Assembly: GCF_004345675.1 (NCBI RefSeq)
Contig: NZ_SLWU01000009.1
Location: forward strand, 1-64,000
Source of the DNA: Caldanaerobacter subterraneus
GTDB taxonomy: Bacteria; Bacillota; Thermoanaerobacteria; Thermoanaerobacterales; Thermoanaerobacteraceae
Direction of reading: 5' to 3'
DNA: 64,000 nt
The position numbers and the translations under genes were made by a program. Shown in pieces: positions 10,475 to 41,778 of this stretch; the stretch's first letter is position 1; each line of letters starts with the position of its first letter. A model generated the notes under the pieces. The model was not told where the DNA came from, made no database searches, and was given only the letters and a program-made list of their open reading frames with translations.

Positions 10475-11590
10475 TCAACCCTTTATTCTCTCATACAATT
10501 CTTCAACCCTTTTGACCATCTCTTCACAGCTAAATTTTTTCGCCACCTCTTTGCCTTTAAGAGAAAGCGTCTCTTTAAGATGAGCATCTTTAAGAAGGCT
10601 CTTTATAGCTTTAGAAAGCGATTCTATATTTCCTTTTTCTACTAAAATGCCATTTACGCCTTCTTGTATTATCTCAGGTATTCCGCCAACAGCTGTAGCC
10701 ACAACCGGCACTCCTTCATTCATCGCTTCTATTACAGATATTCCAAATCCTTCCTCATGAGAAGGAAGTACAAAAACATCTAAATTTCTCAAAAATGAAG
10801 GTATGTCATCTCTAAAGCCGAGCAAAAAAAACCTGCTTTCAAGCCCTTTTTCCTTAATCTTTTCCTCCAAACTTTTTCTATAGGGGCCATCCCCCGCCAC
10901 AAAAAAGAAAACATCTGCCTCCTTTATTAGATGAGCAGCTTCTATCAAATCCTGTACTCCTTTTGAGGGGATGAGTCTGGCAATACTTCCCACAATAAAG
11001 GAGTCTTCAGGTAGACCAAACTCCTTTCTTAAATCCAATTCTCCCATCTTATAAAGAGTCTCGTCAATACAGTTATAAATCACTTCTATTCTGTCTTCCT
11101 CTATCCTTTCGCTTGCCATCATCTCTTTTTTCAGGGCTTCAGATACAGCGATAAACTGATCAGTCCTTTTATTTAAAAACTTTATCAAAAAAAGAAGCGC
11201 TCTTCTTTTCATTTCGCTCATATTGTTGTAGCCAGGAAAATTGTGAAACGTCACAATGGTTTTTACAGGCAAATTAAAGCAGGCAATCCTGCCGACAAAA
11301 GATGCCTTAAAACCGTGCATGTGCACAATGTCAGCTTTAAACTCTTTTACTATATTCCTTATTTTCTTAATAATACTTAGGTCCTCTTTTACATTGAAGC
11401 CATCTCCAATTTCAAGTTCAAAAACCTCTATCCCCTGATTTTTGAGATAGTCAATAGTATCTTTTTCAAACGAGCATACAACACCTAAACAATACTTCTC
11501 TTTATCTAAAAAGCGAAGAAGGGAGAGCAAATGCCTCTTCATCCCTCCTTCAGACTTTCTCACAATGTATAACACTCTCCTTTTATCCAT
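10475..11590 (-). CDS. Glycosyltransferase, GT4 family (GT-B fold)
   Basis: About 371 residues. Transfers a sugar from a nucleotide-sugar donor; acceptor unknown. The N-terminal Rossmann domain has the MKRHLL segment and DIVHMHGFKAS; the C-terminal donor domain has GSIARLIPSKGVQDLIEA and the E-x7-E motif (HEEGFGISVIEA). The frame opens with GTG at 11599, but the ATG at 11590 lies 5 bases after AGGTGG and is preferred. It is 9 bases downstream of the large phosphatase-like membrane protein gene, suggesting a joint role in cell-envelope polymer synthesis (inference). Confidence 0.88.
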   Translation of the reverse strand: MDKRRVLYIVRKSEGGMKRHLLSLLRFLDKEKYCLGVVCSFEKDTIDYLKNQGIEVFELEIGDGFNVKEDLSIIKKIRNIVKEFKADIVHMHGFKASFVGRIACFNLPVKTIVTFHNFPGYNNMSEMKRRALLFLIKFLNKRTDQFIAVSEALKKEMMASERIEEDRIEVIYNCIDETLYKMGELDLRKEFGLPEDSFIVGSIARLIPSKGVQDLIEAAHLIKEADVFFFVAGDGPYRKSLEEKIKEKGLESRFFLLGFRDDIPSFLRNLDVFVLPSHEEGFGISVIEAMNEGVPVVATAVGGIPEIIQEGVNGILVEKGNIESLSKAIKSLLKDAHLKETLSLKGKEVAKKFSCEEMVKRVEELYERIKG

Positions 11591-32107: not shown

Positions 32108-32131
32108 AAAAGGAGGGGACCCCCCTCCTTT
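32106..32131. terminator. Bidirectional terminator between the carboxypeptidase and asnB-like genes
   Basis: AAAGGAGGGG (32109-32118), 3-base loop, CCCCTCCTTT (32122-32131). On the minus strand it is followed by TTTTT and ends the asnB-like unit; on the plus strand only TTT follows. Confidence 0.88.
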
Positions 32132-33611
32132 AAGCATATATCTGGTTGTCATTCAAACTCCTACTCCTTCCCATCTTTTCAATAAAATCTTCTACATTGA
32201 AAAACTCTTTTAAGATTTTAAAGTAATACATCTCCTCTTTAGACTTTATTTCAAAGCCATTTGGAAGTACCCTGTTTCTTAGGTATTCCGTATCCTTTAT
32301 TTGAGATTCAGCAATTCTTTTTAAAACGTAAGCAGTTCCAGACCCTATAGAAAATTTTTCTTTTTTTCTCCACACTATTGAAGAAGGCAGATAATCCTCT
32401 GCCAGTTTCCTTAAAATCCACTTTTCTGTTTTATCTTTCCCTCTTATCTTTAAAGAAGGCCTTATTCTAAAAGCATATCTTAAAACCTCCAAGTCCAAAA
32501 AAGGAACTCTGACTTTCAGGGAAAAGGCCATCCCCATCCTGTCTAGCCGCTGAGAATTGGTGTTGTGAACACTACTTGTGATGTACTTCAGTTCTTTATG
32601 CAATTCCCATGGGTCCTCATAATTTTTCAGATAGTGATACCCTGCAAAAAGTTCATCTGCTCCTTCCCCAGAAAAAACTACATCTACATATTCACTGGCG
32701 AGCTTTGAAGCAAAATAGTTGGCTACTGCACTTCTGACTAAGGCTGGATCACAGGACTCAAGGTGATATATAACTTTGGGCAAAACTTCTTTTATGTCCT
32801 TTTCTGTATAAATAAATTCTTTGTGGCAAGTCTTCAGATATTCTGCGACCAGTCTGGAATTTCTTATATCAGGGCTGTCTTCAACTCCTACAGCAAAAGA
32901 AAACATATTGCTTCTGTATTTAGTAGCTATCGCAGCGACTAGACTACTGTCCAGTCCGCCGCTTATAAATAACCCTATATTTTCATCAGTAAGCCTCTTT
33001 TTCACTGAGTCCTCTAATCTAAGCCTTAATCCTTCTACTATTTCTTTTGCACTTGAAAACTCAAAAGGGTCCTGTGGAATAGAAAAATATTTCATAAACT
33101 CTTTTCCATTGTAGAAATATCCATTTGGAAATTCGTTTATATCTTCTGTGATTTGCTGTAACGCTTTTATTTCAGAAGCAAAAGCCAATCCATTGCCTAT
33201 TTTGCCGTAATAAAGAGGCTTTATTCCCAAAGGGTCTCTTGCTACAAAAACAGCATTTTTTAGAGAATCATAGACCGCAAAAACAAAATTTCCTTCTAAA
33301 AATTTAACACATTCTTCTCCCACTTCTTCATAAAGGTGAAGTAAAACTTCTTCCAGAGAGTGTATTTCATGTCCTGTAAGTTCCATTTTTAAAGCATCAG
33401 CATTGTATATCTCTCCATCAAAAAGGCAGATGTACCTGCCATCTTCGCTTTCAAAAAGTGCCTTTTCTCCCTCTTTCCAGCAACACCCAAAGCTTGCATT
33501 GTCTTTTATAAAAATTTCGCTGTGGTCCACTCCTCTGTGCCTTATTTTCTCTATCATCTGACCTATTTTTTGCACATCCTTCTCGCCAATTATAAAAGCT
33601 AATCCTGCCAA
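32130..33611 (-). CDS. Asparagine-synthetase-like ATP-dependent amidoligase with dead glutaminase domain
   Basis: About 493 residues with the two-domain AsnB layout. The start is TTG at 33611, 8 bases after AAGGAGG; the protein then begins (M)AGLAFI where true AsnB has MCG, so the Cys nucleophile is Ala. Other glutaminase residues are also lost: the RLSI arginine segment reads CCWKEG, NGEIYN reads DGEIYN, and the GSD aspartate is absent. The synthetase domain is intact: SGGLDSSLVAA (PP-loop), GEGADELFAGYHYL, and RKKEKFSIGSG. It can thus form an amide by AMP activation but not use glutamine, as in ammonia-dependent or lactam-forming relatives. It follows the B12 gene across a terminator-like hairpin. 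Confidence 0.85.
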   Translation of the reverse strand: MAGLAFIIGEKDVQKIGQMIEKIRHRGVDHSEIFIKDNASFGCCWKEGEKALFESEDGRYICLFDGEIYNADALKMELTGHEIHSLEEVLLHLYEEVGEECVKFLEGNFVFAVYDSLKNAVFVARDPLGIKPLYYGKIGNGLAFASEIKALQQITEDINEFPNGYFYNGKEFMKYFSIPQDPFEFSSAKEIVEGLRLRLEDSVKKRLTDENIGLFISGGLDSSLVAAIATKYRSNMFSFAVGVEDSPDIRNSRLVAEYLKTCHKEFIYTEKDIKEVLPKVIYHLESCDPALVRSAVANYFASKLASEYVDVVFSGEGADELFAGYHYLKNYEDPWELHKELKYITSSVHNTNSQRLDRMGMAFSLKVRVPFLDLEVLRYAFRIRPSLKIRGKDKTEKWILRKLAEDYLPSSIVWRKKEKFSIGSGTAYVLKRIAESQIKDTEYLRNRVLPNGFEIKSKEEMYYFKILKEFFNVEDFIEKMGRSRSLNDNQIYA

Positions 33612-33635
33612 AGTACCGACCTCCTTATACAAAAA

Positions 33636-33675
33636 TTAAAGGGCGCAAGAAGAGAATCTGCGCCCTTCTTCTTGC
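33636..33675 (-). terminator. Attenuator-like hairpins before the asnB-like gene
   Basis: Minus strand: GGGCGCA (33665-33659) pairs with TGCGCCC (33647-33641), then TTTAATTTTT: an intrinsic terminator. The overlapping GCAAGAAG (33675-33668) pairs with CTTCTTGC (33652-33645) and would exclude it. Either a partial terminator or an attenuator. Confidence 0.7.
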
Positions 33676-33684
33676 TAATTTAAT

Positions 33685-35337
33685 TTACACAAGAAAGCGC
33701 TCCTTTTTGTACTCTCTTAAAATTTTCTCTACCCTTTCTTCCTCTGGTATTATTCTGTGCTTCTCATAGTCATAAGCATAACATGCTCCATCTATCACTT
33801 TTGTCTGAAGAGCGCCTTTGGCGTATTTATTGCCTTTTAAGTGAGGTGCATCTAAAAGACCTATTTCTATAGCTGTTGCCAAAACATCTGGGTCAGACCA
33901 GGGATCTTCGCTGTGTGGCGCTATTTCTTTTATAGCCTCAAGCAAAATCCTTGCCTCTTTTTTGAGCTGTTCTTTCCTCTTTATCACATCTTCGTCTTTA
34001 GTCAAGTCCGGCATTCCAAACATAGTATTTTTTATCACAGCTTTTACTATTTTTACGCTTTCAATTATGTCCTCAGGCGTTGCTGCGTGGTGAGCTTCAC
34101 AATATCCAACTACGTGATATATGTGGGGTTTAATAGCCATAGACAAATACGCGCTAGAAGCGAGCTGCCCTTTTGCTTCTAAAAGGTCAGAAGGAAAGCT
34201 TGCAAGACCTGCTCTTGCTTGCCTTATCACTCTGAAGTTTTCATCTTCTAAGTCCTCTATAAGTTCTATTTTTGCAAGCATTTTTGCCAAGTCCATTTTA
34301 GGTGAAATGGAAGCTGGAACATTGAACATAAATTGTGCTACATAATCCCTAACTCCCATTTTCTTTGCGTTATATGCCGCGAGGAAAGCAGTTACAACTC
34401 CTATAACATCATGAGCATCTCTCAGGCTCCAGTGATGAGCTTCATTTACTTCTACAGGCACTCCTCTCTCTGCATGCCACTTCATCAACTGCTGATTTTC
34501 CCTTATAGAAGTCCTTACATCCCTTGGGCCTCTCCCATCGAGCACATTGTACCAGCTCAATGGTATAGCAGCCCAAGCATTCTTTATAGTCCTTAAAAGC
34601 ATTTCAGCCATCTTGAAAACATCATTGGTTCCGCTGTAGCACCTCAAAAGCGGATAATTGCCTCTTCTTGAAGCTTCGTATATGCGTATTAAATCCTCTT
34701 CTTTTCTTATAGGAACTCCTCCTGCTCCATCCAGAGCTGGGTCGTATTTTTTATCGAAGAAGTGCTCTTGCGCATTCTGGTCAGGAGCTATGGAAATTAC
34801 GTCCAAAACTTCCGCCTCAGCTATTCTTTTGACACCCTCTATCGTATCCTCCAATGAAGGCAGTCCAAAATGGTGTCTTATGATGGGATAGGGGAATTTA
34901 TCCTCAATCCTTCCAATCAGAGTATCTGCAAAGACTCTTTTTTGAGAAGTTGCAGTTTTCCCTCTTAAGAAATTGATAGTCTCCTCGTCTCCTTTTGTGC
35001 CGTCAAAAACTGCAGAAAATATCCCTGACTTTCTCGCAACTTCTGCATTAGGCTCTGTTCCCCCAAACACCCACTTGATCTCCTTTAAATTATTCTTTTC
35101 TATCTTATCTTTAAGTTCTTTTAGCAAGTTCTCCAAAGCTTGTGGCGTAAGTCTGTAACTCACCCCTACAATTTCAGGTTGATACTCTTTTACAGCCTCA
35201 ATCAATTTATCTATTGGGACAGCAGGCCCCAAAAACACCGTCTCATAACCCTGCTGTTCTGCAAACCTCAAAAAATTGTACACTCCAGCAACATGGACAC
35301 AATTTCCAATTGAACCAGCCACGATAAGCTTTCTCAT
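33685..35337 (-). CDS. B12-binding-domain plus TIM-barrel protein, mutase-like
   Basis: 550 residues. Residues 1-125 look like a B12-binding Rossmann domain: VAGSIGNCVHVAG stands in for DxHxxG (Asp replaced by Cys, His kept), GVSYRLT for the SxL motif, and WVFGGTEPN for the GG motif. Residues 150-450 resemble the TIM barrel of glutamate (methylaspartate) mutase E, e.g. CYSGTNDVFKMAE, PLSWYNVLDGRGPRDVR, REN, VEVNEAHHWSLRDAHD. A carbon-skeleton or amino-group rearrangement of an amino acid is inferred; the substrate is unknown. The start ATG overlaps the dehydrogenase stop by 4 bp. Confidence 0.78.
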   Translation of the reverse strand: MRKLIVAGSIGNCVHVAGVYNFLRFAEQQGYETVFLGPAVPIDKLIEAVKEYQPEIVGVSYRLTPQALENLLKELKDKIEKNNLKEIKWVFGGTEPNAEVARKSGIFSAVFDGTKGDEETINFLRGKTATSQKRVFADTLIGRIEDKFPYPIIRHHFGLPSLEDTIEGVKRIAEAEVLDVISIAPDQNAQEHFFDKKYDPALDGAGGVPIRKEEDLIRIYEASRRGNYPLLRCYSGTNDVFKMAEMLLRTIKNAWAAIPLSWYNVLDGRGPRDVRTSIRENQQLMKWHAERGVPVEVNEAHHWSLRDAHDVIGVVTAFLAAYNAKKMGVRDYVAQFMFNVPASISPKMDLAKMLAKIELIEDLEDENFRVIRQARAGLASFPSDLLEAKGQLASSAYLSMAIKPHIYHVVGYCEAHHAATPEDIIESVKIVKAVIKNTMFGMPDLTKDEDVIKRKEQLKKEARILLEAIKEIAPHSEDPWSDPDVLATAIEIGLLDAPHLKGNKYAKGALQTKVIDGACYAYDYEKHRIIPEEERVEKILREYKKERFLV

Positions 35338-36440
35338 GCTGTCGCAACCTCCTTTCTCTTCCCTTCTACTAGTTCTATGATCTCCTTAGGCGACATCCCA
35401 CGTATTCCCAATTTATCGGCAGTTCTCCCTATTTCCCAGTAATTTTTTCCATGCATCACGGATGCCAGATGTATTATCGCGTCAATTGTGGGCGTTTTTA
35501 CACCTATTTCTTTCCCAATAGAAGAGATAGGCACAAGGCTCATAGGAACATCTTCAAAAATATACCTGCAATTTACAGTATCAGGAGCCATAAGCCCTAT
35601 ATAAGCTTTTGTGTTCTGTATAGCTTCATAAAGCGTATCCCCATCGGCATTGTAACTTTCTTTAAGCCATCTTTTAGCAGAGATAGTTTTCACGCCTAAA
35701 GCCTTTGCCACCATCATTCTCTCATTGTCAATCTTTTCAAGGATTTTGGCGACAGAAGGCGAAATCCCTTCTCTATAGTACTCAAAATTTCCCTTGGTAG
35801 TCTCAATCCGAGCAACATTTAAAAGCGTTGGAGCAGGATGGAAAATTGCTCCAAAATTGTTGAAGCTGGTTTCTAACACGTTCTCAGCAGCTACAAACTG
35901 TGGAAAAGCGATATTGAGAATTTCCACTACTTCTTCCGTTTTATCTTTAGGAATTGCCGCAACTGATACTATGTCTTTAATCTTGTATATTTTAGCTTTC
36001 CCATTAGAAGACCTGCAGGCATAGATAAAAGTATCAGTTTCAGCAACAACAACCTCTAAATCACTTCTCTTTTTAAGTATGTTGTAAACTTCCAATGCTC
36101 CCCCTGTTCTTCCGGGATTTAATACCACTATCTGGCCTCTTTGCAAGTAGGGCAAAAGCTCTTCTGCAATCATGGCGTGGGCAGACGCAGGCACAGCAAC
36201 TAGTATCATATCCACATCTTTTACGGCTTTGCTTATATCGTCAGTCACAAGATTCAGTTTCCCAAATCCTTCAACTTCTCCTTCTAGCTCTATACCGCCT
36301 CTTTGTATTATTGGAATCAATTTTTCATAAGTTCTATTGTATAAATTTACTTTAAACCCTTTTAAAGCGAGATGTCCTGCAATTGCCTGCCCCCCGTTCC
36401 CCGCCCCGATTACAGCAAAATAAGGCATTTTCATGCCCAT
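35334..36440 (-). CDS. Opine (octopine/nopaline) dehydrogenase-like NAD(P)-dependent enzyme
   Basis: 368 residues. The N-terminal Rossmann fold has AVIGAGNGGQAIAGHLALKG; the C-terminal octopine-DH helical domain includes NNFGAIFHPAPTLLN, with the catalytic-type His. The family couples an amino acid to a 2-oxo acid by reductive condensation, giving N-(carboxyalkyl) amino acids, or runs in reverse; actual substrates cannot be read. SD AAGGGGG; ATGs at 36440 and 36434 are both possible. It is the first gene under the c-di-AMP riboswitch and coupled to the B12-type gene. Confidence 0.86.
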   Translation of the reverse strand: MGMKMPYFAVIGAGNGGQAIAGHLALKGFKVNLYNRTYEKLIPIIQRGGIELEGEVEGFGKLNLVTDDISKAVKDVDMILVAVPASAHAMIAEELLPYLQRGQIVVLNPGRTGGALEVYNILKKRSDLEVVVAETDTFIYACRSSNGKAKIYKIKDIVSVAAIPKDKTEEVVEILNIAFPQFVAAENVLETSFNNFGAIFHPAPTLLNVARIETTKGNFEYYREGISPSVAKILEKIDNERMMVAKALGVKTISAKRWLKESYNADGDTLYEAIQNTKAYIGLMAPDTVNCRYIFEDVPMSLVPISSIGKEIGVKTPTIDAIIHLASVMHGKNYWEIGRTADKLGIRGMSPKEIIELVEGKRKEVATA

Positions 36441-36462
36441 ACACCCCCTTTTTAAAGAAATG

Positions 36463-36490
36463 AAAAAGCTATAGAAGGACTTCTATAGCT
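36463..36490 (-). terminator. Riboswitch expression-platform terminator
   Basis: Minus strand: AGCTATAGAA, 4-base loop, TTCTATAGCT (36490-36467) followed by TTTTT. It lies between the aptamer and the dehydrogenase start, as expected for transcriptional OFF control. Confidence 0.88.
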
Positions 36491-36526
36491 TTATCTTCGG
36501 TGCCAAAAAAGACAATAAGACACCCT

Positions 36527-36672
36527 ACATGCTATCATATCCTTCTCTTTCAACGCTTACGGGGTTAGCTGACGGGTTCGGGTCGAAAGATAACCCTACC
36601 ATCTTTTAAAAGATGGATTCACCCCAAAAGAGTGGGTCCCCCGCTTCTTAACGAATTCAGCGTTTAGCATGT
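36527..36672 (-). promoter_or_regulatory. c-di-AMP riboswitch (ydaO/yuaA type)
   Basis: The minus-strand RNA has the conserved ydaO core: a GGGGGACCC segment, GGGGTGAATC, GGTAGGG, and ACCCGTCAGCTAACCCCGTA. A closing stem AACGCT (36664-36659)/AGCGTT (36557-36552) is extended by ACATGCTA (36672-36665)/TAGCATGT (36534-36527). In known cases c-di-AMP binding causes termination, and such genes serve cell-wall or osmotic functions. Here the controlled genes are metabolic. Confidence 0.9.
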
Positions 36673-36699
36673 TATTCAATTATACAAAAGCCCGTTTTT

Positions 36700-36728
36700 A
36701 TTATATCATAAAATAAAATGTTTGTAAA
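36700..36728 (-). promoter_or_regulatory. Promoter of the riboswitch operon
   Basis: Minus strand -35 TTTACA (36723-36728), 17-base spacer, -10 TATAAT (36700-36705). Confidence 0.88.
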
Positions 36729-36749: not shown

Positions 36750-37400
36750 TCAGTATTTGCCAAAATCTTCTCCTACTCTTATTTCATCCAGATAGTTGTA
36801 AATAGTGTATCTGGACACGCACAAAATTTTTGCCACATAGTCTACAGCACCTCTTATAAGGAATGTGCCCTTTGCATCCAGCATCTTAACTATCTGCACC
36901 TTCTCCTCTTTTGTCATGAAATTTACGGGTTTACCAAAACTCTCCAGTGTTGTGTTCACTATGCTCTCCAAAACATCACTAACACTGCCTGTGTAGGATT
37001 CCTTGTTTTCCTCTGAAGGCTCTGATATTTCGCAGAATTCTGACAAAGTATTTTTTACAAGAATAAACTCCGATATGTCTATATTTATTGTCAAACACCC
37101 TACAGGTCTTCCATTTTCGTCTTTTATAAAAATAGCAGAAGATTTTAATATCTTCCCATCTCTAGACTTGTTCTTAAAATTGATCATGTCTTCTAAACTG
37201 TCTGATTTTAATGCCTTTTGAATGACATCAGGCAAAGGACTTCCTTTTTCTCGCCCGGTAACGTGGCCATTGGCAATGGCAATTATTGGGCTTTGAGGTG
37301 ATGAAAGGTCGTGAAGAGCTACTTCGCAATTTTTCCCAAATATGTTCGCAATGCTTTCTACCATAGGAACAATGCTTTTTAACAGTGGATGAGTACCCAT
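36750..37400 (-). CDS. YheO-like PAS / helix-turn-helix transcriptional regulator
   Basis: 216 residues. Residues 10-120 form the YheO-like PAS domain (CEVALHDLSSP, IANGHVTGREKGSPLPD, FIKDENGRPVGCLTINID). The C-terminal 60 residues are a DNA-binding HTH (VDYVAKILCVSRYTIYNYLDEI). In other bacteria relatives (DauR type) control D-amino-acid or other amino-acid catabolism. It has its own strong promoter and lies just upstream of the riboswitch operon, so it may regulate or be functionally linked to it (inference). Confidence 0.85.
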   Translation of the reverse strand: MGTHPLLKSIVPMVESIANIFGKNCEVALHDLSSPQSPIIAIANGHVTGREKGSPLPDVIQKALKSDSLEDMINFKNKSRDGKILKSSAIFIKDENGRPVGCLTINIDISEFILVKNTLSEFCEISEPSEENKESYTGSVSDVLESIVNTTLESFGKPVNFMTKEEKVQIVKMLDAKGTFLIRGAVDYVAKILCVSRYTIYNYLDEIRVGEDFGKY

Positions 37401-37767: not shown

Positions 37768-38184
37768 TTATTTTGCACTTTTTAAAGCCTCTGCAGCTAA
37801 CTCTTTGAAAGTCTCTGATGTATGCGTGGCACCACTAACAGTGTCTACTTTCTCAGGATCCTGCTTTTCAATCAACTGTTGTTCTAACTTCTCATAAGCT
37901 TCTTTCGGAGTGATATTTACTTTTGCCTTCATATTCTCTGCATATTGTTGGTCATCTCTCTTTAGCTGGCCATCTTTGTTTACTTCATTATAGGTTACTG
38001 ATACTATTTTGCCATCTTTTACAGTTATCTCTATTTGCCCTTTCCAGCCATGCTCGTCAAAGTTGGGTTGCTCTGCTTTATAAGTACCATCTTTGTAAGT
38101 ACCGCTTGCTGTTTTTGAAGAACAGCCACCCATTACAAACAAACCAAACACCCCTACCAGCATAAGAGCCAAAATTATTCTCAT
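37768..38184 (-). CDS. FMN-binding-domain lipoprotein (PplA-like)
   Basis: 138 residues. A lipoprotein signal ends VMGGC (lipobox Cys20 or so). The FMN-binding domain follows: DGTYKAE, DEHGWKGQIEITVKDGKIVSV as separate elements, and SGATHTSETF, where the Thr is the covalent flavinylation site. Listeria PplA, which carries electrons out of the cell, has two such domains; this has one. The ApbE gene in the same locus would attach the FMN. SD AAAGGAGAGG. Last gene of the locus, before a strong terminator. Confidence 0.87.
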   Translation of the reverse strand: MRIILALMLVGVFGLFVMGGCSSKTASGTYKDGTYKAEQPNFDEHGWKGQIEITVKDGKIVSVTYNEVNKDGQLKRDDQQYAENMKAKVNITPKEAYEKLEQQLIEKQDPEKVDTVSGATHTSETFKELAAEALKSAK

Positions 38185-38268
38185 AAAATTATACCTCTCC
38201 TTTAATGTAAATCTTTATGCAAGAATATTATATATTATTTATGTTAAAATAACATCAATATGTAGTGA

Positions 38269-39228
38269 TTAGAAAACGTATACTTTCCAAAAACCTACCA
38301 TATTCCCTTTTGTTACCAAAGCCAAAACCATCATAATTCTTGTATTTTGATATATCTTCACAGTATTAGCATTCGCTTTTACCAACTGCGGTATACTGTC
38401 ATAATATTTACGAGCAATATTTACAGAGTGCACTGCTAATGGAATTGTTAGAAAAGATAATAACCACAGTAGATTTTTAGTAATGACAGTTATCACAACG
38501 AAAGAAAGATATGCTGCTCCATAAAGGGCTGCATATACTATTACACCTTTTTGTTTGCCTATCCTCACCAATAAATTGTATTTATGACCTTTAAGGTCAG
38601 CTTCATAATCAGGATATTGATTTATCCAAAGGACATTGGTTATTAAAAAACCTATCGGCAAGGAAATCAGTAAAACATCCATACTTATGTGATGAGTCAT
38701 CACCAAATACATTCTCATAACTATTAAAAGGTCCAAAAGTCACTCTTACAGCTATTTCTCCAAGTCCCCTATAGCTGAATTTAAAAGGAGGTAAACTATA
38801 AAAAACTGCCATTAAAATTCCCAATAGTCCTACAATTAGTACCAACGGTTCTCTAAAGATTACAATAGCCAGACCTATAGCACAAGCAGCAAGTATTGTT
38901 ATAATCGCAATAATTATTGTCTCTTCAACTGTAAGTTTACCATCGACTATGGTTTTTTTCCGCCACTAAAAGGAGTCCCTTTATCTGGAGTCACGAAAAT
39001 ATCTACTCCAGATTTATAATCAATGAATTCATTAACTGCATTTTTGCCAATCTCAATAAAATAAATACCTACAACAAAGACAACAAACCAGAAAAGGTCA
39101 AATTCACCCGTTTTTCCATACGCATAGGCAGTTGCAATAAACATAGGTACGGTGGAAGCTATCCATATCTTAGGGTCTGCTAATTACCAAAATCCTTTCC
39201 ATAACCTTAAAAACCGTGCTTTATCCAT
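38269..39228 (-). pseudogene. UbiA-family prenyltransferase (DmkA/MenA-like), broken
   Basis: About 310 codons of a demethylmenaquinone-type prenyltransferase. The start at 39228 has GAGGAG. Codon 15 (39184-39186) is TAA, probably from CAA. The frame then reads NAVNEFIDYKSG (first Asp motif) to FSGGKK, where a 7-A run (about 38952-38958) needs one more A to continue as TIVDGKLTVEETI. A third lesion near 38724 (extra T in CCTTTTAATAG) separates VRVTFGPF from LIVMRMYLVMTHH. The second Asp motif (NQYPDYEADLKGHKYN) is intact. Three lesions make it a clear pseudogene unless the assembly is poor. Confidence 0.9.
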
Positions 39229-39251
39229 AGAAATCTCCTCCAACAAAAGAA

Positions 39252-40289
39252 TTATTTAGTCATTAAAGTATATTCCGGATCAGTAATTTTAAAATTTCCT
39301 CTTAATCCAGAAGTGATATATACCTTTTTGTCATCTGTTACAAATATAGCTTCTACTCCTTTAAGACTCTCTGCAAGTTTTAAACCTTTATCCAAACCCA
39401 AAACAAAAATTTTTGCAAGGGCATCACCATCTATGGAAGTATCTGTTATTATTGTGACACTATATAAGTGAGTATCTGCAGGATAACCTGTAAAAGGATT
39501 TAATATATGGTGATATAACTTTCCATCTTTTTCAAAGTATCTTTCATAAACTCCTGAAGTAACAACGGCCTTTTCTGCAACCTCTACTATCCCAAGATAT
39601 TCACCTCTGGGTTTGAAAGGAGTTTGAATACCTATCCGCCAATTGCTTCCGTCAGGTTTCGTTCCAATTGTAAGAACATCACCGCCCAAATTTATAATAG
39701 CATGCTTTACTCCTTCTTTTTTTAAAACTTCTGCTACTTTATCTGCCGCATATCCTTTTGCAATACCTCCTAAGTCTATGCTCATGCCCTTATTTTTTAG
39801 CATAACAGTCATATTCTTTTCATCCAAAATTATATCCTTATAATTTACAAGAGGAAGTTTAGCTTTTATTTCTTCAGGTGAAGGGATTCTGGCCTTATCA
39901 GTACCTATATTCCAAAGATTCACTATAGGACCTACAGTAATATCAAAATAGCCTTTTTCAACTTCAGAAAAATGAACTGCCTTTTTTATAACATAAAAAG
40001 TATCAGGAGAAACTTTTACCGGTTTAACGCCTGCATTTTTATTAATTTCACTTACTTCGCTATTTTCTATAGTAACACTCATCTTCTCCTCTATATCCTT
40101 TATAGCTTTAAATCCATCATCTAATACTTTCTTTGGAACTTTGTCGTATATAGTTATTGTGCAATAAGTATCCAGTGCAAATTGGGTATCGGATATGGGC
40201 TGTAAGTTTTTACTTGAACATCCAGAAAGTACTCCCATAGTAGTAAATATTAGAAAAAAAATTGGGAAAAAGACCATATATTTTTTCAT
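39252..40289 (-). CDS. apbE: ApbE-family FMN:protein transferase, lipoprotein (FmnB-like)
   Basis: 345 residues. Transfers FMN from FAD to a Thr of target proteins on the outer side of the membrane. A lipoprotein signal ends LSGC. The ApbE core has FALDTYCTITIYD, FDITVGPIVNLW, SIDLGGIAKGYAADK and AIINLGGDVLTIG, then HHILNPFTGYPAD and DTSIDGDALAK, the metal-binding motifs. All look intact. The likely substrate is the FMN-binding lipoprotein 1 kb downstream; in Listeria this pairing is FmnB-PplA. It lies between the two broken quinone-synthesis genes. Confidence 0.94.
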   Translation of the reverse strand: MKKYMVFFPIFFLIFTTMGVLSGCSSKNLQPISDTQFALDTYCTITIYDKVPKKVLDDGFKAIKDIEEKMSVTIENSEVSEINKNAGVKPVKVSPDTFYVIKKAVHFSEVEKGYFDITVGPIVNLWNIGTDKARIPSPEEIKAKLPLVNYKDIILDEKNMTVMLKNKGMSIDLGGIAKGYAADKVAEVLKKEGVKHAIINLGGDVLTIGTKPDGSNWRIGIQTPFKPRGEYLGIVEVAEKAVVTSGVYERYFEKDGKLYHHILNPFTGYPADTHLYSVTIITDTSIDGDALAKIFVLGLDKGLKLAESLKGVEAIFVTDDKKVYITSGLRGNFKITDPEYTLMTK

Positions 40290-40376
40290 ACAGTAATCCC
40301 CTCCGAAAATAAAGGCTTCGCTTGTTTTCTAATAATTCCTATGCAAAAGCTTGTTTGCAACTTCACTTGAAATTAT

Positions 40377-41210
40377 TTAGGTAGAGAATCTTTCTTCAGG
40401 AGAGCTATTTTATCAAAAGCTTTTTTAGGATATTTTTCTGCCAGCATTTTTGACTGTTCTATTCCATCATTTTGCTGAACAAATTCAACTAATACATCTT
40501 ATATCTTCATCACCATAACTTTTTTCTTTAGCAGCTCTATCATCTTTTCATCTCTATTTTTCTAAAATATCGTCTATAATTTGAAAAACCATCCCAATAT
40601 TATAACCTATACTCCCCAATACTTTGGACAACTCTTCTCCACACCTGCTTTCATAAGCCCCCACATAAAAACTTAAAGCAAAAAGAGCAGCGGTTTTTGC
40701 AGCTATCCGTTTCAAATAGTCATTTATTGTAATATTTATATCGTATCGGCTTTCAAATTGCGTAATCTCCCTTTTGTTGCATATCCTTGAAACTACTTTA
40801 GATACCTTTTTTAAATTAACAATAGCGATATTATCTGATAAAAGCAGAAAACTTTGAGAGAAGAGAAAATCTCCAATAAATACTGCATAATCTTTGCCAT
40901 ACTCGGCTTGAATAGTGGGTTTACTGCGTTTTATTAAAGCATTGTCAATTATACCATCATGTACCAAAGTTGCCATGTGAAGCATCTTAACGGCAGCAGC
41001 TAAAGGCAATATCTTCTTCTTATCATATTTTCCAAATTTCGCCGCCAAAATCACAAAAGCAGGCCTTAGCATTTTGCCGCTATTGTAGATCATGTCTAAT
41101 AATATATCTCTGATTAATTTATTAGAATTTTTTATACGCCTCTCCATTATTTTTACAACTTCTGTAAGTTTGTTTTTTATTTCTAAATTTTTATCCCAAA
41201 ATTTATCCAT
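40377..41210 (-). pseudogene. Polyprenyl diphosphate synthase (DmkB/HepT-like), decayed
   Basis: The frame from 41210 gives 218 residues (SGKMLRPAFVIL, the first aspartate region, EYGKDYAVFIGDFLFSQ, YNIGMVFQIIDDILEK), then a stop, where the family continues another 100 residues. The first Asp-rich motif reads HDGIID instead of DDxxD. Downstream, the family C-terminus (FVQQNDGIEQSKMLAEKYPKKA) is still readable in another register, ending at 40377, so there is an internal deletion plus frame damage. Relatives supply the prenyl tail of a quinone. A partial, inactive product is likely. Confidence 0.85.
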
Positions 41211-41223
41211 CTAATTACCTTTA

Positions 41224-41778
41224 TCAATAGAAATTTAATCCTTTTAATTTACTCCAATGTTTTAAAACAAATTTTGCAGATAATCCCACAAAAACACCCG
41301 TTCCTATTCCAGCTATCATTAGCACAGGAAGATATATCATTATTTTAATGTTTTGTACTATCAAAGAGGCCACTAACATTTGCCCAATGTTGTGAAATAC
41401 AGCCCCCACAACACTTACTCCCACTTCACTTATATTACTCTTGCCTATACTTTTGACAAAATGCATAGCAAAAAGGCTTAGTAAACCTCCTCCTATACTA
41501 TAAAAAAGAGTAGAAGGCGAGGAAGCAAAAAAAGTAGCTAATAGTATTCTTACAATAAGCACAACAAATGTATCAAAAAGACCAAATAAATACAAAGATA
41601 CAATAGTAATTATATTAGCAAGTCCTAATTTAGCGCCGGGAGCAATAAAAGGAACAGGTAACATTCCTTCTATAATGTATAAAATCAAAGAATTAGCAAC
41701 TAATATAGCCAAAAAAACCATTTTCTTAGTCTTTGACATGGCAGTATGTTCAATAGGTAACTTGGTCGACCTCGACAT
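41224..41778 (-). CDS. EetB-like membrane protein (Gx transporter / Hpre_diP_synt_I family)
   Basis: 184 residues, about five hydrophobic helices, with the family start KTKKMVFLAILVANSLILYIIE split around the first helix and PFIAPGAKLGLANIITIV as its signature. Formerly annotated heptaprenyl diphosphate synthase component I; in Listeria the homologue EetB belongs to the extracellular electron transfer locus. The ATG at 41778 has GGGGGTT, but family alignment suggests 41739; the first 13 residues overlap the EetA remnant. It is 13 bases upstream of the polyprenyl synthase remnant. Confidence 0.82.
   Translation of the reverse strand: MSRSTKLPIEHTAMSKTKKMVFLAILVANSLILYIIEGMLPVPFIAPGAKLGLANIITIVSLYLFGLFDTFVVLIVRILLATFFASSPSTLFYSIGGGLLSLFAMHFVKSIGKSNISEVGVSVVGAVFHNIGQMLVASLIVQNIKIMIYLPVLMIAGIGTGVFVGLSAKFVLKHWSKLKGLNFY

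Follow-up and report, generated by a model that had tools for sequence, protein, structure and literature searches.

A c-di-AMP riboswitch precedes a conserved opine dehydrogenase and B12 mutase-like gene pair in Caldanaerobacter subterraneus and other clostridia, with a possible role in solute synthesis

We analysed an operon on the reverse strand of a 64,000-nucleotide stretch of Caldanaerobacter subterraneus DNA (contig NZ_SLWU01000009.1, positions 1 to 64,000; hereafter the window), in which a riboswitch of the cyclic di-AMP (c-di-AMP) class precedes genes for an opine dehydrogenase (ODH), a B12-binding protein with a glutamate-mutase-like barrel (MUT) and an AsnB-like ligase. Comparison across genomes leaves hardly any doubt that ODH and MUT form a conserved module under predicted c-di-AMP control. 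The best explanation we can offer, held with about equal belief and doubt, is that a c-di-AMP OFF riboswitch governs the synthesis of a compatible solute derived from an amino acid. In what follows, L numbers denote loci and G numbers genomes of the comparison set, the genome that carries the window (2.58 Mb) being G000. The features of the operon are listed below in the direction of transcription.

36700-36728, (-) strand: predicted sigma-70-type promoter, TTTACA-17-TATAAT with TG preceding the second hexamer (consensus scan, 11/12)
36540-36672, (-) strand: c-di-AMP (ydaO/yuaA) riboswitch aptamer, RF00379 (cmscan, full model 1-134)
36473-36546, (-) strand: candidate antiterminator, one among several alternative helices (helix listing)
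36465-36492, (-) strand: intrinsic terminator of the riboswitch, a predicted 12-bp stem (-13.4 kcal/mol) followed by a U-rich tract
35334-36440, (-) strand: ODH, an opine dehydrogenase (PF02317) of the CENDH/ArODH type (family and residue matches)
33685-35337, (-) strand: MUT, an N-terminal B12-binding domain fused to a glutamate-mutase-like TIM barrel (family, profile and structure matches)
33629-33675, (-) strand: terminator-like hairpin followed by a T-rich tract in the gap between MUT and AsnB (fold of 33690-33603, -26.4 kcal/mol)
32130-33602, (-) strand: AsnB-like ligase with the glutaminase site lost and the synthetase motifs kept (family and alignment)
32109-32131, (-) strand: intrinsic terminator 3′ of AsnB (terminator scan)

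The RF00379 match, with 117.5 bits where the gathering score is 38 (E 2e-27), and the terminator scan confirm the ydaO-type aptamer and terminator that an earlier reading made from the letters alone (the sequence-only reading) had proposed. As in known ydaO/yuaA switches, a full-length, high-scoring aptamer and a terminator stand before the first gene. Terminator-like sites numbered 11 in the region against 3.3 expected, and promoter-like sites 11 against 10.4 expected from shuffling; the predicted promoter, also named in that reading, is credible because of its position, with its end approximately 28 nt 5′ of the aptamer, and not because of its score. An 8-bp pairing between the 3′ tail of the aptamer, AGAAGGAU (36546-36539), and GUCCUUCU (36480-36473), which occupies the loop and 3′ arm of the riboswitch terminator, is a plausible antiterminator of the switch in the predicted fold.

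Conservation was followed in a sample of 24 genomes from the order and one of 399 genomes from the phylum, with 40 wide loci compared; the 38 loci from outside the order (L087-L124) are referred to as distant loci. A MUT match of some kind was found in 23 of the 24 order genomes, the weak ones being mostly to the B12 domain alone, and an orthologue in 21, with a contig end cutting one. At the level of the phylum, MUT was present in 86 of the 399 genomes, and approximately one-fifth of the sampled genomes thus encode a B12-dependent enzyme without an assigned reaction. ODH directly adjoined MUT in nearly all loci inspected, and each of the 20 MUT-bearing order genomes compared had an RF00379 switch upstream of the pair and in its orientation. 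Of the 38 distant loci, 16 had a switch directly 5′ of the pair and in its orientation by a model of our own, and all 16 riboswitches passed Rfam's own gathering score. In 18 loci scanned that lack RF00379, neither a cobalamin nor any other Rfam riboswitch was found beside ODH-MUT. Order genomes carry three to five RF00379 switches each, and the linkage would arise by chance at roughly fewer than 0.1 locus of 36, an indicative value since the loci are related. Tandem aptamers occurred at L008 and L125, two loci of one family. As judged from gene order and sequence, the ODH-MUT pair is ancient and deeply conserved, and the grouping of the three genes recurred in distant lineages, as the sequence-only reading required. 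Behind the other three RF00379 switches of G000 (C43, C9:77684 and C13; L012-L014) lie genes for a peptide-binding-type lipoprotein, an SH3/NlpC-P60 protein and a LysM cell-wall hydrolase-like protein.

The gene set, which had been taken as undescribed, was in fact listed in 2009 in a comparative genomics study that predicted a B12-dependent family "always adjacent" to a pfam02317 ODH in 11 genomes, with an N-terminal B12-like domain and with genes for Ddl and AsnB nearby (PMC2667541). By description it is the same set as in the window operon; that study names neither a riboswitch nor a substrate, and it assigns no mutase function and no role. What is added here is the c-di-AMP control, the link to MutL, the glutamate-mutase fold and the ODH specificity. 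None of the literature searched joins the ODH-MUT genes to c-di-AMP, although a mention in the ydaO papers of 2010 and 2013 is possible, and within that literature the c-di-AMP control, the substrate prediction and the mutase assignment appear new. Known RF00379 targets are K+ and osmolyte transport and wall hydrolases, whereas the literature searched reports no opine/B12 pathway among them.

The window ODH matched PF02317 with an E value of 5e-54, and its closest solved relative was the Arthrobacter CENDH/ArODH (1bg6). His202, Trp258 and Asp297 (ArODH numbering) were invariant in all 40 MUT-linked ODHs. At positions 111 and 198, ArODH, which acts on apolar amino acids, has Ala and Asn, whereas Arg and Gly were present in the window ODH and in all 40 MUT-linked ODHs, the most divergent included. 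Six hot-spring ODHs with approximately 40% identity to ArODH favour L-Asp or L-Glu and pyruvate as substrates, in most cases with NADPH as cofactor, and exchanging both residues between Arg/Gly and Ala/Asn at 111/198 flips the substrate preference (PMC10787698, 2024). These enzymes share with CENDH and the window ODH the CENDH-type PF02317 fold, the catalytic His/Asp and the Trp, and with the window ODH the Arg/Gly specificity pair; the study reports neither an operon nor a biological role. The presence of Arg/Gly in all linked ODHs suggests that the pathway probably begins with N-(1-carboxyethyl)-aspartate or -glutamate as its first product, which is the strongest functional inference of the analysis, and ODH very likely belongs to the substrate class that combines L-Asp or L-Glu, both acidic, with pyruvate. 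The opine chemistry put forward in the sequence-only reading was supported.

The window MUT matched the B12-binding family PF02310 (E 9e-14) and remained below the cut-off of PF06368 (24.9 against 26.6 bits), which a few of its relatives pass, and below that of TIGR01503 (15.2 against 390 bits). Together with PF02317 for ODH and Asn_synthase for AsnB (E 2e-67), the families expected for the three genes were thus recovered, and no known catabolic family was matched. A profile of 29 MUT sequences showed that the B12-ligating His15 is invariant. The barrel aligned with canonical MutE over 354 columns (22% identity, hhalign E 7e-7), and the AlphaFold model (pLDDT 92.6, pTM 0.82) had the glutamate mutase E chain as its top PDB match (E 6e-17), with ornithine and lysine aminomutases and methylmalonyl-CoA mutase lower down. 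MutL (PF13941), the accessory protein of glutamate mutase, was encoded beside ODH or MUT in L097, L100, L112 and L123, and in L120 and L121 it forms the C-terminal part of a fusion with MUT (1214 and 1233 aa); the only MutL of G000 adjoins an ornithine-aminomutase-like gene. MUT therefore resembles glutamate mutase (MutS/MutE, MutL) in its barrel and B12 domain folds and in having a MutL partner or fusion, but its B12 domain is N-terminal and fused, and the Asp of DxHxxG is Cys (CxHxxG) in most MUTs, being retained in some. In all likelihood MUT is a B12-dependent carbon-skeleton mutase.

R66, R100 and R149, which we take to be the glutamate-binding arginines of glutamate mutase, aligned to His156, Gln190 and Tyr234 of MUT, each invariant across the MUT alignment. 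The invariant His156 and Gln190 in place of arginines suggest a substrate other than glutamate, and MUT probably works like glutamate mutase, without being filed as one, on another substrate. Glutamate mutase makes 3-methylaspartate, and its architecture in MUT would fit an order in which MUT precedes ODH, a free acidic amino acid being turned into a branched isomer that ODH joins to pyruvate and AsnB amidates. Such an order would also agree with the varied acidic side chains accepted by the hot-spring ODHs (PMC10787698), but the replacement of R100 by Gln190 and of R66 by His156 speaks against it, and we regard it as unlikely. A bolder reading, less likely than not, is that MUT acts on the opine made by ODH, N-(1-carboxyethyl)-L-aspartate or -glutamate, and isomerises it in an adenosylcobalamin radical step, giving for instance an N-(2-carboxyethyl) or a branched isomer. 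An AsnB without glutaminase, or a Ddl-like ligase, would amidate or cyclise this isomer to an undescribed, c-di-AMP-repressed compatible solute, which a divergent catabolic version with transporter and amidase would recycle.

The window AsnB shares the domain order and synthetase motifs of asparagine synthetase B, with SGGLDSS, SGEGADE and RKKEKF retained in the alignment to 1ct9, and lacks the glutaminase nucleophile, Cys2 being Ala and the NHR-type glutaminase segment replaced. Its most likely start is the TTG at 33602 (MAGLAF..., with AAGGAGG upstream) and not 33632. The other Thermoanaerobacter copies begin MCGLAGIIG, and most linked AsnBs keep MCG(L/I)AG; in the AsnB tree the window copy formed a long branch within Cys-bearing sisters, and independent Cys2 losses were seen in G373, G397, G073 and G162. 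On the evidence of this tree and alignment, the glutaminase loss in the window AsnB is real but recent. The glutaminase-dead AsnB of the sequence-only reading thus stands for the window copy but not as a trait of the system, and we rejected it as a defining trait because Cys2 was lost repeatedly and is kept in most linked AsnBs. These repeated losses suggest that the glutaminase is dispensable and that the nitrogen donor may be ammonia or an amine. The analogy with beta-lactam synthetase that accompanied this claim gained no specific support, as the window AsnB is far from that enzyme in sequence (1jgt, E 9e-19, against 1ct9, E 4e-75). G000 encodes a separate AsnB of 654 aa, so the operon copy need not make asparagine. 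A separate Cys-less AsnB group was found in MUT-negative genomes too. L182-L205 represent an AsnB-like clade of approximately 465-510 aa with Ser or Ala for Cys2, apparently glutaminase-free throughout, which many clostridia encode whether or not they carry MUT.

Whether AsnB belongs with the pair bears on the pathway as a whole. The sequence-only reading described three tightly packed genes, which holds for ODH and MUT, whose reading frames overlap by 4 bp, but AsnB is separated by the hairpin in the MUT-AsnB gap; a similar hairpin occupies this gap in four sister loci (L002, L003, L004 and L009), and AsnB may therefore be only partly co-transcribed. AsnB was linked to the pair in Thermoanaerobacter, in L089, L107, L114, L115 and L117 and, by coordinates, in G359 and G397, and was missing in one Thermoanaerobacter lineage (L001/L021). 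In L118, a degenerate AsnB (10663-11201), with an MCGICGYFG start, an internal deletion and a truncation, lies between a c-di-AMP switch and ODH-MUT. Separate RF00379 switches precede AsnB and ODH-MUT in L089, and in G073 (L177) an AsnB gene that is not linked to MUT also follows an RF00379 switch of its own. Among 398 genomes, 17 of the 20 with the top-scoring AsnB-subfamily members, from approximately 10 families, were MUT-positive (Fisher p 8e-10, phylogeny ignored). AsnB could be a mere neighbour, with ODH-MUT as the whole system, in keeping with the hairpin and with its absence from L001/L021 and most other lineages; its repeated adjacency in unrelated families, its own switches in L089 and L177 and the association over 398 genomes make this improbable.

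Two further AsnB candidates were set aside. The AsnB in Halanaerobiales L007 (27% identity, a normal 613 aa, three genes downstream, no riboswitch) was attributed to chance. Tsac_2392, an AsnB of Thermoanaerobacterium with a strong increase in a strain evolved under osmotic stress (PMC5577258), is probably a different gene and was not used as evidence, because its tag adjoins PBP1A and the pathway-type AsnBs (L212 and L213) have no such neighbour.

In L103, L105, L106, L109 and L123, a Ddl-fold ATP-grasp ligase was present in or beside the operon; AsnB and an ATP-grasp partner occurred together in none of approximately 40 loci, numbers too small for significance. It is likely, with good confidence, that AsnB or the ATP-grasp ligase acts in the same pathway as ODH-MUT. 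These ligases raise the question of a cell-wall branch, in which the pathway would yield a modified dipeptide or an amidated peptidoglycan precursor, the Ddl-like ligase and AsnB would be wall enzymes, and the operon would count among the usual cell-wall targets of c-di-AMP switches. Such a branch would be consistent with the wall hydrolase-like genes (SH3/NlpC-P60 and LysM) behind other c-di-AMP switches of the genome and with a D-Ala-D-Ala carboxypeptidase gene next to the operon, but the carboxypeptidase gene is convergent and stands beside ODH-MUT only in Thermoanaerobacter. The L106 ligase matched PF07478, but the position of the omega-loop Tyr216 of E. coli DdlB is Arg, which argues that it is not a Ddl. 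Mur genes are not conserved next to ODH-MUT, and the ODH specificity residues indicate free acidic amino acids. We therefore consider a wall product rather unlikely.

Binding of c-di-AMP to ydaO-class riboswitches favours termination. In the pathway that we prefer, ODH would, very probably, join pyruvate to the amino group of L-Asp or L-Glu with NAD(P)H to give the N-(1-carboxyethyl) derivative, and MUT, with adenosylcobalamin and a glutamate-mutase architecture, would rearrange the carbon skeleton of this opine or, alternatively, provide ODH with an acidic amino acid that it has already rearranged. AsnB, or elsewhere the Ddl-like ATP-grasp ligase, would then amidate a carboxylate at the expense of ATP and so leave the product with a smaller net charge; in the window strain, with its dead AsnB glutaminase, the nitrogen would come from free ammonia or an amine. 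At high c-di-AMP (high K+, low osmolarity) the terminator would form and synthesis would be off, and as c-di-AMP falls under hyperosmotic or K+-poor conditions synthesis would be on. The ATP-spending ligases and the lack of recurrent linked transporters favour synthesis over breakdown, and c-di-AMP control favours an osmolyte or cell-wall product. The chances that the product is a compatible solute are, in our estimate, evenly divided; the suggestion of the sequence-only reading to this effect was supported. An AsnB-like amidotransferase also amidates an osmolyte in N-acetylglutaminylglutamine amide synthesis, but the window AsnB is not a member of that family (TIGR03104, 204 against a cut-off of 570), and that pathway has no B12 step, unlike the window operon.

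Several points weigh against this synthesis of a solute under c-di-AMP repression. RF00379 is not linked to the pair in 22 of the 38 distant loci, some of these genomes (G044, for example) having no match of the RF00379 class at all. More than half of the lineages have neither an AsnB nor an ATP-grasp partner. The hot-spring ODHs are tied to the MUT-linked ODHs by residues and not by tree placement, the glutamate-claw arginines are not kept at the aligned MUT positions, which makes the proposed mutase substrates tentative, and the OFF direction is taken from the behaviour of the ydaO class and the predicted fold. In addition, c-di-AMP switches also govern cell-wall genes, and enzymes of the Ddl and AsnB types can serve the wall.

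The pathway might also run in the opposite direction, imported opine-like amides being degraded with ODH working oxidatively to release an amino acid and pyruvate. A divergent branch (L120 and L121) combines ODH and the MUT-MutL fusion with an Opp/Dpp-type ABC transporter, a GntR-type regulator and a Peptidase_C26 amidase, and looks like a catabolic mirror image in which the amidase replaces the ligase, a lead from two genomes only. However, this branch is only 27-33% identical and was found in two of 300 genomes at high stringency, and the c-di-AMP-switched loci have ATP-spending ligases and no recurrent linked transporter or hydrolase. Breakdown is accordingly a doubtful account of those loci, and we return to synthesis as the preferred explanation. 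If that explanation is true, the c-di-AMP regulon would grow from transport and wall genes to the synthesis of an opine-type metabolite, and a new adenosylcobalamin rearrangement could be added. The link to c-di-AMP, an osmotic and potassium second messenger, makes this orphan family testable as one whose solute is made when c-di-AMP drops; the list of substrates is concrete (Asp or Glu with pyruvate), and the thermophile enzymes should purify easily. ODH-MUT, often with an amide-forming partner, may supply clostridia with a protective solute when they face osmotic or potassium stress, a proposal that we would neither favour nor disfavour by much.

Just 5′ of the riboswitch lies a gene for a YheO-like PAS and HTH_22 regulator (36750-37400, (-) strand), which is retained in Thermoanaerobacter loci and was not present in Thermoanaerobacterium or the other lineages inspected. 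Further upstream, the (-) strand region 37768-41778 of the window encodes a PplA-like FMN-binding lipoprotein and an ApbE-like flavin transferase, together with a polyprenyl-diphosphate-synthase-like and a Gx-transporter-like open reading frame (ORF), all but the PplA-like protein being named by reading the translations. Read in the same way, a UbiA-type prenyltransferase is apparently split over three ORFs (38269-39144), and the region resembles an extracellular-electron-transfer locus whose prenyltransferase is broken.

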